Origin: Candidatus Bathyarchaeota archaeon
GTDB lineage: Archaea > Thermoproteota > Bathyarchaeia > TCS64
Direction of reading: 5' to 3'
Length of the DNA: 34,332 nucleotides
NCBI GenBank assembly: GCA_030739585.1
Contig: JASLYX010000010.1
Span: 1 to 34,332, forward strand
Both the position numbers and the translations under genes were made by a program. Positions 15,440-25,750 of this stretch are shown in pieces (position 1 is the first letter of the stretch; every line of letters begins with the position of its first letter). The notes below the pieces were generated by a model that ran no database searches, was not told the DNA's origin, and worked only from the letters and a program-made list of their open reading frames with translations.

Positions 15440-16009
15440 GTGTCACATTTGAGAGAAAGGCTGATCGAGATCCGCTTTCACGGCCGGGGAGGTCAAGGGG
15501 CTTGGACGGCATCTTTGCTTCTCGCCCAGGCCGGATTGATTGAGGGGAAATATGTTCAGAGCTTCCCCGCCTTTGGACCTGAGAGATCTGGGGCGCCGTT
15601 AACTGCTTTCACAAGGATTAGCGAAGATCCAATTCACCTACATTCTAGCATTTATGAGCCTGACGTCGTTGTGGTCCTAGATCCTACCCTTATGGGTCCT
15701 TCCGTTTTCGAGGGATTGACGCAAGATACCAAGATTGTTGTGAACACTGACAAATCTCAAGAAAAGATGAGAGCAGTCCTAGGGGTGCAGCAAGGGGAAC
15801 TCTATGTTCTCGACGCTACTAGCCTCGCTTTAAAAATTCTCGGGCGACCTATAACCAACACCGCCATGCTTGGGGCAGTAGTGAGGACGACTGAGATAGT
15901 GGCACTTGACTCTATACTGTGGGCTGTAGGAAAACGATTCACGGGGCGAATCGGTGAACTCAACTTGAAGTTAATAAAAACCGCGTACGTGGAGGTTGGC
16001 AAAGAATAA
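15440..16009 (+). CDS. porC: Pyruvate/2-oxoacid:ferredoxin oxidoreductase, gamma subunit
   Basis: 189 residues, the gamma domain of 2-oxoacid:acceptor oxidoreductases. It begins I-E-I-R-F-H-G-R-G-G-Q-G-A-W-T-A-S (R-x-H-G-R-G-G-Q-G is diagnostic), followed by F-P-A-F-G-P-E-R-S-G-A-P and V-V-V-L-D-P-T-L. The C-terminal part has R-P-I-T-N-T-A-M-L-G-A, as in PorC/VorC. Start GTG 15440 or TTG 15449. First gene of a gamma-delta-alpha-beta operon, the usual archaeal order. The complex oxidises pyruvate (or a branched 2-oxoacid) to acyl-CoA and CO2, reducing ferredoxin, in the cytoplasm of anaerobes. Confidence 0.95.
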   Translation: MSHLRERLIEIRFHGRGGQGAWTASLLLAQAGLIEGKYVQSFPAFGPERSGAPLTAFTRISEDPIHLHSSIYEPDVVVVLDPTLMGPSVFEGLTQDTKIVVNTDKSQEKMRAVLGVQQGELYVLDATSLALKILGRPITNTAMLGAVVRTTEIVALDSILWAVGKRFTGRIGELNLKLIKTAYVEVGKE

Positions 16010-22092: not shown

Positions 22093-23469
22093 TCATTCAA
22101 TGTGGACCCTAAAGAGGTCTATGTCCCCCTGTAACAGCGGAAGGAATTCCTTCACGGATCTTTCCACGTCCTTGGACTGGGTAATGTATCGTCCCACGAT
22201 GAGGATATCGGCGCCTGCTTCTAGGGCGAACTGGGCAGTATCGGGACGGATGCCCCCTGCAACAGCGATGAGAAGCTTGCTGTCCCGGAAGGCCTCCCGG
22301 ATCTTTGAAATATAGCCCCATCTGACTTCGGCACCCCTATGCTCAGTGTCAATGGGTCTATGGAAGATGATCCCATCAGGGATTTTCTTGAGTCCTTTCA
22401 GCTTCTCCACAGGGTCATCCACTTGCATTAGGTCGAGGAATGAGTAGATCCCGAGCCTCCGGGCCTCGTAGATGAATTCGTCTATGGTGGCAGATGATGC
22501 TGCCCCAGCGCAGCATACCGCATCTGCGGTCTCCTCGAATGCCATGTCCACCTCTACTTTCCCGACGTCCATGGTCTTAAGGTCGGCTATGATGAAGCTG
22601 TCCTTTCTGATCTTCCTGAGCTCTCTGATAACTTGGACTCCGTATCTCTTTATGAGAGGCGTCCCCGCCTCAAGGATCACGTTGTCGTTCCTTGGGACAT
22701 TCTTTATGACTTGTTTGATCATCTCGATATTTGGGTTATCTAAGGCAATCTGAAGATATGGGGGCCTCCAGAGCCTTGGGGGTCTGAAGCCCATCAGGGG
22801 GTGCTTAACCCTGTCCTTATCGTATTGGATTTTCTCCCAGGGCGGATAGGCCTGGAGAGCCCTGCTCAAGGCAAGCTTGGTGGCACTGTAGTTATATTGC
22901 CATATTCTCCGCTCGTCCTTAGCCTTTGGGTGGATAAAAACGCTGACGATGACTACCCAGTCATCAAGAATGGCCATTGGAATGATACCGTCCTCAACGG
23001 CATCAGCTACTGCCTTTGCGACGGCTGATTGGGCCGGCCCGAAGATCTTTGCAGCATCCTCCATGTTTTTGATCGTAACCTTGGGGACGATGACTGTATG
23101 GGGCTTCGGGGTGAGATTGGGGCGGATCACCGCGAGGAGGGGAGTGTGTCCGGCAGAGAGATGACTCAAGGATTGGGCAAAGGAATAACCCACGGGGCCC
23201 TGCTTGTCCCCGATCATGAGATCGATGTGTGCTATTTCGTCTCCCTTTCCCACCAGAGCCTCTCCAATTAATAAGGCGCCTCCTTTGTAAGATGAGCTAA
23301 CGCTGAACCTATCGATTGCTGCTCTTACTGCCTCGCTCATGGACCCGAATCTTCCTTGTTCCACTTGGCTCTCGAGAAACTTGAATTGTTTCTGAGTTAT
23401 CTTTCCTGGTGTCCTTTGAAGGCTTTTGTCATCACTCATTAATATCTCTGAAAGCATGGGAATACCCAT
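22093..23469 (-). CDS. RHH - formaldehyde-activating enzyme - 3-hexulose-6-phosphate synthase fusion
   Basis: 458 residues with three parts. Residues about 22-54 fit a ribbon-helix-helix DNA-binding domain (I-T-Q-K-Q-F-K-F-L-E-S-Q-V, then G-R-F-G-S-M-S-E-A-V-R-A-A-I). Residues 64-225 are Fae: I-G-E-A-L-V-G-K-G-D-E-I-A-H-I-D-L (catalytic H81), S-A-G-H-T-P-L-L-A-V-I-R-P-N, and F-G-P-A-Q-S-A-V-A-K-A-V-A-D-A-V. Residues 238-458 are HPS, with A-D-L-K-T-M-D (D296, K298, D301) and V-A-G-G-I-R-P-D. Fae-HPS fusions are known in archaea, joining formaldehyde with tetrahydromethanopterin or ribulose 5-phosphate, or making pentoses by the reverse RuMP route. The RHH part is unusual. ATG 23439 is an alternative start that still keeps the RHH; the TATA-like TTTTATA at 23471-23477 fits it better. 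Confidence 0.93.
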   Translation of the reverse strand: MGIPMLSEILMSDDKSLQRTPGKITQKQFKFLESQVEQGRFGSMSEAVRAAIDRFSVSSSYKGGALLIGEALVGKGDEIAHIDLMIGDKQGPVGYSFAQSLSHLSAGHTPLLAVIRPNLTPKPHTVIVPKVTIKNMEDAAKIFGPAQSAVAKAVADAVEDGIIPMAILDDWVVIVSVFIHPKAKDERRIWQYNYSATKLALSRALQAYPPWEKIQYDKDRVKHPLMGFRPPRLWRPPYLQIALDNPNIEMIKQVIKNVPRNDNVILEAGTPLIKRYGVQVIRELRKIRKDSFIIADLKTMDVGKVEVDMAFEETADAVCCAGAASSATIDEFIYEARRLGIYSFLDLMQVDDPVEKLKGLKKIPDGIIFHRPIDTEHRGAEVRWGYISKIREAFRDSKLLIAVAGGIRPDTAQFALEAGADILIVGRYITQSKDVERSVKEFLPLLQGDIDLFRVHIE

Positions 23470-23470
23470 G

Positions 23471-23477
23471 TATAAAA
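23471..23477 (-). promoter_or_regulatory. TATA-like box of the RHH-Fae-HPS gene
   Basis: The minus-strand word TTTTATA overlaps the region just before ATG 23469. With normal spacing it would start transcription near 23450, favouring ATG 23439 (or ATG 23457) as the true start. Confidence 0.35.
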
Positions 23478-23491
23478 CCCTTCCAAAACAA

Positions 23492-23511
23492 TGTGCCCTC
23501 TAGGTGTCACA
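23492..23511. promoter_or_regulatory. Candidate operator TGTG-N12-CACA upstream of RHH-Fae-HPS
   Basis: TGTG (23492-23495) and CACA (23508-23511) form inverted half-sites spaced 12 nt, ending 15 nt upstream of the TATA-like box. The right half belongs to GTGTCACAA (23504-23512), which recurs as a direct repeat at 23555-23563. An RHH dimer or other regulator could bind here; this is inference. Confidence 0.25.
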
Positions 23512-23557
23512 AATAATATAGAATATACATATTTTCCCATAACTTTCATTTGATGTG

Positions 23558-23998
23558 TCACAAGATTCCTCTGATTTTTATGTTAACCTTACTATGATGG
23601 TTATGGAGGAGACTTACAAATTCCAGGGGGATATCAGATGATGACTTGTCCGCTTTTATCATTAGTGTTCTATTGCAGATAAAGTTACTTTTCCTGATCA
23701 CTATATCTGAGGGGCTGGCAAGGGTCAGCCGTGGATGACCTTTCCCTCTTACAACTAGGCTTTGATTACCGGTTTCCATGATGAAAATAACTTCCGCCTT
23801 CTCGTTCTTGATAATGTCCTTGAGCTCTGGGGAAATGTCTTTCAGACCTCTCTCGGCATGCACAGCGAGAATACAATCACCCTTCCTCGATAGATATTTG
23901 TCTGTTGTTACCATAATCGTCGTACTGTGCTTGGATGTAATATTGGCGTGGCCCCAGGCTGTGAACGAGTCTTCCGCCTCTCTTTTTTGTTGGTTTAT
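23558..23998 (-). CDS. DUF371 family archaeal protein
   Basis: A small, mostly archaeal family of unknown function. Visible motifs: W-G-H-A-N-I-T-S-K-H-S-T-T (family A-R-G-H-x-N-I/V-T-A-T-H-x-T-T), L-S-R-K-G-D-C-I-L-A-V, G-K-G-H-P-R-L-T-L, S-D-I-V-I-R-K-S-N-F-I and R-T-L-M-I-K-A-D-K-S. The conserved start continues 20 codons upstream of the first ATG (23914), back to an in-frame TGA at 24008-24010, and holds no ATG, GTG, TTG or CTG. ATA at 23996-23998 lies 4 nt after a strong GAGGTGA site and is the best start, giving about 146 residues. A start at ATG 23914 would remove a conserved strand and has no ribosome-binding site. DinB lies upstream, separated by a T-run terminator. Confidence 0.85.
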   Translation of the reverse strand: MNQQKREAEDSFTAWGHANITSKHSTTIMVTTDKYLSRKGDCILAVHAERGLKDISPELKDIIKNEKAEVIFIMETGNQSLVVRGKGHPRLTLASPSDIVIRKSNFICNRTLMIKADKSSSDIPLEFVSLLHNHHSKVNIKIRGIL

Positions 23999-25247: not shown

Positions 25248-25490
25248 TTATTTATTTTCCTTAGCTATTATCATTGTCGAGGTCATGAAGATGTTAGGAA
25301 TAGATCTCAACTGGGAGGTGATGAACTCGTCAAGTCGGTTCATATCCTTTGCTGTCACCTTGATGATCGCGTCATATTCTCCGTATATGGTTGCAACCTC
25401 TTCTACCTCCCTGAACTCTACAAGGGCCTTGCAAACCTCATCTTCCGTTCCGGTACTTACATTCACTAATATGTAGGCTTTAACCGTCAT
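25248..25490 (-). CDS. Lrp/AsnC-type RAM-domain protein without HTH
   Basis: 80 residues forming a stand-alone RAM (ligand-binding) domain of the Lrp/AsnC family: V-K-A-Y-I-L-V-N-V, then E-V-A-T-I-Y-G-E-Y-D-A-I-I-K-V and a final helix-strand with T-S-T-M-I. The Y-G-x-Y-D motif is characteristic. It lacks the N-terminal DNA-binding domain, as in other small archaeal RAM proteins that bind amino acids or modulate Lrp partners. ATG 25490 is chosen over the 10-residue-longer start because GAGGG lies 3 nt upstream and the family begins M-x-V-K-A-Y. A small unrecognised gene ends 11 nt upstream, and the leucine operon lies about 490 nt upstream on the same strand. Confidence 0.9.
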   Translation of the reverse strand: MTVKAYILVNVSTGTEDEVCKALVEFREVEEVATIYGEYDAIIKVTAKDMNRLDEFITSQLRSIPNIFMTSTMIIAKENK

Positions 25491-25501
25491 AATCCCTCGA
25501 A

Positions 25502-25750
25502 CTATCGGAGGAAACACCATTTATAGGTGTATTGCGTTTGGCCACCATGGCTCCTAATAATCAGTAAGGATTTGGTCTTCGCAGTCATAGAATTGAGGAT
25601 CCTTTTGTTGTCCTTTTTTCCCACCCCGATAATTCCAGCGCCCTCCATCCCAGAAGGTTTTACCTTACCGTGGACTGGGAATTCCCGGTCCTCCCTATAA
25701 AGATCGATTTGAACTGTATATACTGAAGTTTCTTTTTTGTTATTGACGAT
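25502..25750 (-). CDS. Small unrecognised protein lacking a standard start codon
   Basis: An 82-codon frame ending in TAG (25502-25504), 11 nt before the RAM-domain gene. The sequence looks protein-like, not antisense: T-S-V-Y-T-V-Q-I-D-L-Y, E-F-P-V-H-G-K-V-K-P-S-G, G-A-G-I-I-G-V-G-K-K-D-N-K-R-I-L-N-S, L-L-I-I-R-S-H-G-G-Q. It is basic and probably beta-rich. In frame upstream are ATC GTC AAT AAC, then TAG, and an ATG four codons before that TAG. So the gene either starts at a near-cognate codon (ATC 25750), is broken by the TAG, or begins internally (ATG in P-S-G-M-E-G). No family is recognised. Pairing with a RAM-domain gene suggests an operon. Confidence 0.4.
   Translation of the reverse strand: MVNNKKETSVYTVQIDLYREDREFPVHGKVKPSGMEGAGIIGVGKKDNKRILNSMTAKTKSLLIIRSHGGQTQYTYKWCFLR

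Follow-up and report, generated by a model that had tools for sequence, protein, structure and literature searches.

The window, by which we mean the whole 34,332-nucleotide stretch of DNA analyzed here, carries on its minus strand a gene for a fused formaldehyde-activating enzyme (Fae) and 3-hexulose-6-phosphate synthase (HPS), preceded by a predicted ribbon-helix-helix (RHH) domain and candidate operators. The features of the locus are as follows:

22093..23439, minus strand: RHH-Fae-HPS gene, with a likely start at ATG 23439 (MSDDKSL...); homologues align from MS[DE]DKGL
22147..22761, minus strand: HPS domain with its ADLKTMD motif (profile match, structure alignments)
22792..23268, minus strand: Fae domain (profile matches, structure alignments)
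23290..23409, minus strand: predicted RHH domain, about residues 21-60 of the 458-residue reading frame (profiles, alignment, predicted structure)
23470..23479, minus strand: TATA-like element GGTTTTATAC, which is GGTTAAATA in many relatives
23492..23511, minus strand: main candidate operator TGTGACACCTAGAGGGCACA, imperfectly palindromic, with 12 bp separating it from the TATA-like element downstream
23554..23563, minus strand: second candidate operator TTGTGACACA, which lies a further 51 bp upstream and overlaps the DUF371 stop codon

The open frame (22093-23469, minus strand, 458 codons) reaches an upstream ATG at 23469, while the conserved MSDDK sequence makes the ATG at 23439 the likely true start. 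In the numbering of the full frame, the Fae domain (PF08714) scored 225 bits over residues 68-226 and the OMPdecase/HUMPS domain that corresponds to HPS scored 112 bits over residues 237-441. The NCBIfam model for bifunctional Fae/HPS (NF009833, 392 positions) aligned to residues 66-457 with 569 bits, above its curated cut-off of 274. The HID motif of Fae and the ADLKTMD motif of HPS, which we take to hold the catalytic residues, are intact in alignments to 1y5y, 9lj9 and 3ajx. The protein is thus, by its sequence, a bifunctional Fae-HPS with both activities predicted. Its host genome belongs to Bathyarchaeia (1.69 Mb) and contains two separate 6-phospho-3-hexuloisomerase genes that score above the family cut-off, so that fructose-6-phosphate and ribulose-5-phosphate could be linked through HPS. 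The two nearest genes on the same strand encode a DUF371 protein and a transglutaminase-like protein. A 90-residue open reading frame at window positions 25248-25520 matched only an Lrp/AsnC ligand-binding domain, without the DNA-binding part.

Counted from the likely start, the N-terminal extension comprises about 55 residues. The initial annotation had read it as an RHH domain of the CopG/ParD type, and this identification was borne out by ParD and CdrS profiles, by all homologues and by ParD-type structural overlays. Searched as a 69-residue piece, the extension matched TIGR02606 (ParD antitoxin; E 1e-6), CdrS (E 4e-4) and PF03693 ParD (E 4e-4, with 21 bits equal to the cut-off). The window sequence scored 29 bits against TIGR02606 and 21 bits against CdrS, far under the curated cut-offs of 46 and 100, and across the window and homologous extensions the TIGR02606 scores of 25-29 bits fall short of ParD membership; we therefore speak of an RHH domain and assign it to neither ParD nor CdrS. 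All 17 homologous extensions matched both TIGR02606 and CdrS at E<=0.01; Pfam RHH_1 recognized 9 of the 17, at a best E of 8e-6, and PF03693 recognized 7. Fifteen columns are invariant across the 17 aligned sequences, so that the extension is conserved among homologues and not random. When a profile was built from these extensions, ParD chains were its top PDB matches (best E 1.2e-4). A chance RHH match was rejected on the agreement of all 17 homologues. Misassembly or a wrong start as the source of the fusion was likewise rejected, because the fusion recurs in many independent genomes, including two that are single contigs (G003 and G102). In a search with the RHH profile, 4 weak matches (best E 2e-6) fell elsewhere, in addition to the 17 fusions.

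An AlphaFold monomer model of the extension piece (mean pLDDT 73) contains two helices, at residues 16-27 and 34-50 of the piece, in keeping with the secondary structure first proposed; the short strand of the initial annotation is coil in this monomer model, and the strand region carries a conserved Pro-Gly (RAPGRIT) that is atypical of an RHH ribbon. Among 15 chains compared, the best PDB overlays were ParD-type antitoxins (VIA Z 5.4, 4.8 and 4.3), while the NikR overlay (Z 3.7) was level with that of the unrelated protein HU. Foldseek returned no significant E-value for the model (best 1.2), and the structural support accordingly lies in this ranking. The two helices, the sequence pattern and the turn are those of the RHH superfamily. 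These results support the assignment of the extension to an RHH domain, for which DNA binding is predicted.

Fae-HPS was detected in 152 of 256 genomes of the class (E<=1e-60). We collected 148 copies from 145 of the 152 genomes and, after removing 4 truncated at contig ends and 1 masked copy, classified the 143 readable ones by their N-terminal heads: 109 carry a helix-turn-helix (HTH) domain (including L172, whose HTH is degraded), 17 the RHH domain, 1 a third type of HTH and 16 none, such that 127 of the 143 bear one of three DNA-binding domains. The RHH extension was present in all 17 readable copies fetched from the order of the window, whereas the other 126 readable copies from the class all lack it; the remaining copy from the order (L028) is cut by a contig end. 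The common HTH head has the consensus KPTISGTAKxLxIHRDTLYxWMKEFNVDF. Pfam HTH_28 matched 46 of 46 tested members at E<=0.1, and several other HTH families matched 24-42 of the 46 at the same threshold, mostly under their cut-offs. A structure search with the HTH model gave many HTH and TetR-like overlays of middling Z (best 6.5) and no closest family, and Foldseek gave no significant E-value. The domain occurred once per genome in 26 of 26 genomes, in which no stand-alone relative was found at E<=1e-3. The third type, in L020, matched HTH and sigma-factor-like Pfam families. Beyond the class, all 10 Thermoproteota copies fetched (of 11 found) have only 10-43 residues before Fae in the open frame, with no such domain by eye, and all 9 full-length copies under Asgard or other non-Bathyarchaeota titles have at most 19. 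A separate second Fae of Bathyarchaeia was observed at L031:496-1992, joined to the C-terminus of an enzyme resembling dihydrodipicolinate synthase (DHDPS), a fusion that would link the capture of formaldehyde to a reaction of the aldolase type; the upstream parts of L030, L180 and L181 resemble this fusion, the domain match having been run for L031.

The DNA upstream of these genes differs according to the head. In the RHH group it contains TGTGACACCTAGAGGTCACA-like palindromes plus a second TGTGACAC site, while in the HTH group TCCGACA lies immediately before the TATA box and TGTCGG lies on the start codon. The region 23470-23570, which the initial annotation had singled out as the putative target of the protein, holds two TGTGAC-type sites whose positions are conserved across most of the order. 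The candidate operator TGTGACACCTAGAGGGCACA is itself conserved in the order and occurs once in the host genome at <=2 mismatches. We counted motifs on either strand within 150 bp upstream and compared the counts with shuffles, leaving out L015, with its short upstream DNA, L170, for which no start was located, and the truncated and masked copies, and moving L172 to a class of lost or degraded HTH. TGTGACA was present at 15 of 16 RHH genes, 2 of 107 HTH genes, 0 of 13 genes without a domain and 0 of 4 genes with a lost or degraded HTH, and TCCGACA at 0 of 16, 102 of 107, 1 of 13 and 0 of 4, respectively; the shuffles averaged 0.5 of 16 for TGTGACA in the RHH group and 1.4 of 107 for TCCGACA in the HTH group, and since related genomes inherit their motifs by descent, these counts are not independent. 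Each common head thus pairs with its own promoter motif at the gene of the enzyme itself. The RHH promoter without an exact TGTGACA is that of L013, the no-domain gene with TCCGACA is L175, and in family f3 the operator arrangement differs.

Exact TCCGACA abuts a TATA-like element at 94 of the 107 HTH genes; by eye, the other 13 comprise 10 with a one-base variant and 3 with starts misplaced by the script. Two copies that lost the HTH (L135 and L168) retain TCCGGCA, one base decayed from TCCGACA. At the start codon, the second codon (Ser2) is TCG in 100 of 106 HTH genes, whereas over all 1268 serine codons of these genes TCG is used 126 times. This choice preserves TGTCGG, and the bias suggests that the DNA here, beyond the protein alone, is under selection. 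Upstream of the third HTH type (L020, locus 2915-2962), TGCCGCA and TGCGGCA lie either side of the TATA box, 41 bp apart; this arrangement is suggestive of a third operator, although it was matched by 61 of 1000 shuffles and is not significant alone. In the window, a perfect inverted repeat, CATGGG-TATT-CCCATG (23455-23470), lies downstream of the TATA element and ahead of the likely start codon, and none was noticed in the other listed RHH upstream sequences. L172 and L173 are second Fae-HPS copies on a longer branch, in which the HTH is degraded or absent and the operator is lacking; they sit in genomes (G141 and G130) that also hold an intact HTH copy, and are possibly constitutive paralogues.

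Searches of all 256 genomes located the same motifs almost exclusively at Fae-HPS. The pattern TCCGACANNYTTWWATA, which combines the HTH operator with the TATA box, was found at 105 places in 104 of the 256 genomes, all of them members of the five HTH families, which comprise 136 genomes, and none among the 120 others, while its reversed control was found at 11 places. We verified 103 of the 105 places at a Fae-HPS promoter: 94 upstream of fetched genes and 9 more preceding an HTH-type N-terminus (one cut by a contig end before the HTH and one with a broken frame). Of the remaining two, one is masked and one lies elsewhere (G117:C129). For the RHH operator with <=1 mismatch there were 11 matches (2 for the reversed control), of which 10 coincide by coordinates with RHH-Fae-HPS promoters, and this strict pattern catches 10 of the 17 RHH genes. 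The stray matches at G117:C129 (HTH) and G237:C45 (RHH) look like background, and no regulon beyond the gene itself was found by the strict patterns in the 256 genomes. Allowing 2 mismatches in the genomes of the order raised the number to 25, compared with 6 for the reversed pattern; by coordinates, 15 of the 25 lie at Fae-HPS promoters and the other 10 do not, so that a few further targets of the RHH operator may exist in the order. A third, solitary TGTGACAC in the window, at 15440-15447, lies away from the Fae-HPS gene and is probably there by chance.

The sites are also regularly spaced. In HTH promoters, the distance from the upstream TGTCGG to TCCGACA is mostly 21, 30-31, 72-74 or 81-84 bp, with single cases of 40, 42, 53, 76, 77 and 94 bp. 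Scanning periods of 5-16 bp gave a best period of 10.55 bp, equal to a turn of B-DNA; after thinning to n=21 by keeping a single promoter from each cluster at 90% identity, R was 0.81, which 0 of 20000 random sets reached, and a crude collapse to 7 spacing classes reduced R to 0.57. Pairs of RHH sites, identified with a slightly relaxed pattern, lie 41-42 bp (3 loci), 51-52 bp (10 loci) or 62-63 bp (3 loci) apart and differ by lineage, the seventeenth locus (L015) being too short upstream. Helical phasing would be expected if one oligomer gripped sites on the same face of the DNA. Known structures show Fae as a pentamer and HPS as a dimer, so the fusion could present many DNA-binding heads.

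To place the heads on the phylogeny of the enzyme, we built a quick tree from 90 Fae-HPS cores with the extensions removed. The RHH copies formed one clade (SH-aLRT 96), and a second clade (SH-aLRT 99) held 53 HTH copies, 3 domain-less copies and 1 masked row, indicating losses within it; other domain-less copies fell between and outside the two clades. The four copies with a lost or degraded HTH fall into two related pairs. Support in this tree is weak at the root and at some deep forks, and the outgroup rows do not form one clade; as RHH and HTH are different folds, two acquisitions are required wherever the root lies. Judged from sequence, Fae-HPS has gained unrelated DNA-binding heads at least twice independently.

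An enzyme and a DNA-binding domain in one chain, with a conserved candidate operator at the promoter concerned, are the marks of a trigger enzyme. We consider it highly probable that RHH-Fae-HPS is such an enzyme, predicted to bind and govern its own promoter and essentially no other, with repression as the probable effect. In this scheme, HPS would split hexulose-6-phosphate into ribulose-5-phosphate and formaldehyde or run in the opposite direction, and Fae would hand the formaldehyde to tetrahydromethanopterin. The N-terminal RHH dimer would bind TGTGAC half-sites of its own promoter, with one oligomer clasping two sites whole helical turns apart (51 bp here), and the metabolic state of the enzyme would thereby set its own synthesis. 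In most other enzyme-bearing Bathyarchaeia, the unrelated HTH would do the same job by reading TCCGACA/TGTCGGA. DNA binding, oligomeric bridging and repression are the steps that we infer here, and the ligand would presumably be a sugar phosphate, formaldehyde or a pterin. The suggestion that the protein is an autoregulating metabolic enzyme in the manner of PutA gains support from the finding that the motif at its own promoter is tied to the type of head.

The direction of control is where the closest alternative lies, namely that the fusion protein activates its own promoter. Archaeal activators often bind upstream of the TATA box, and, relative to the start codon, the RHH sites are at about -72 and -124 and the TATA near -38, an arrangement that fits activation as well as repression. 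In the HTH kind, however, one site covers the start codon and the main one is directly next to the TATA box, where a bound protein would be well placed to block transcription, so that repression is the likelier mode there; positive autoregulation by a metabolic enzyme would also, we reason, be unusual. On balance we regard activation as unlikely. Much less plausible still is a scheme in which the heads serve only to oligomerize or localize the enzyme and the motifs belong to an unlinked regulator. RHH domains do also mediate protein-protein contacts, as when ParD binds ParE, yet the identity of the motif tracks that of the head across clades, the four copies (two lineages) with a lost or degraded HTH lack the motif, and the pattern is nearly confined to the Fae-HPS gene, whereas such a regulator would often mark its own gene. 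Finally, the sub-threshold profile scores of the window and the insignificant Foldseek E-values could suggest a fortuitous RHH-like pair of helices that does not bind DNA. That all 17 homologues match RHH models, with their 15 invariant columns, that ParD-type antitoxins head the structure list and that a class-specific operator accompanies the extension make this very improbable.

Extending the trigger-enzyme reading to both kinds of head, we think it reasonably likely that Fae-HPS is a platform for interchangeable heads with matched operators, installed independently at least two and perhaps three times and sometimes lost together, and that the oligomeric enzyme spans helically phased sites as a bridging autoregulator of one gene. 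If so, formaldehyde and pentose supply would be under dedicated control across most enzyme-bearing Bathyarchaeia, where control of ribulose phosphate and formaldehyde supply is apparently important. The same enzyme with unrelated heads would amount to a natural replicate, pointing to strong pressure to couple the enzyme to its own promoter, and would offer a directly testable circuit, with candidate operators resolved to the single base, in one of the major uncultured groups of archaea.

Trigger enzymes are already known as a kind. To our knowledge, few enzymes also serve as regulators, and archaeal examples are rarer still. The small ParD/CC2985 antitoxins and CdrS have RHH helices and a G-R-[FY]-x-S turn in common with the window extension, which differs in being fused to an enzyme and in scoring under the cut-offs of those families. 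In PutA, an N-terminal RHH domain is the DNA-binding part and the enzyme part is a proline dehydrogenase. PutA of E. coli is described, in the available text, as a single-target regulator, a metabolic enzyme that carries a DNA-binding domain and represses the promoter region of its own gene (PMC8249747). It is bacterial, its enzyme is unrelated, it switches to the membrane and it also controls putP; the proteins described here are archaeal Fae-HPS, with no second target by strict patterns. The accessible text on RbkR presents an archaeal riboflavin kinase with an HTH, annotated as an enzyme and a regulator of riboflavin-metabolism genes (PMC8305020). RbkR belongs to another enzyme and pathway, whereas Fae-HPS has taken at least two unrelated DNA-binding domains. 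The same enzyme fusion as ours, Mhun1628 of Methanospirillum hungatei, had its HPS activity measured, and a role in trapping the formaldehyde that arises from ribulose phosphate synthesis was proposed for it, with no DNA-binding domain described in the available portion of that report (PMC5241800). The NCBIfam Fae-HPS model likewise aligns only from residue 66 of the window protein. In the accessible parts of the open-licence literature, including PMC5241800, PMC8407382, PMC8249747, PMC8305020, PMC7772410 and PMC9723798, no DNA-binding domain on Fae or Fae-HPS is described. Relative to that literature, what appears to be new is a probable Fae-HPS trigger enzyme, its spread across most enzyme-bearing members of a class and its unrelated heads with matched operators.
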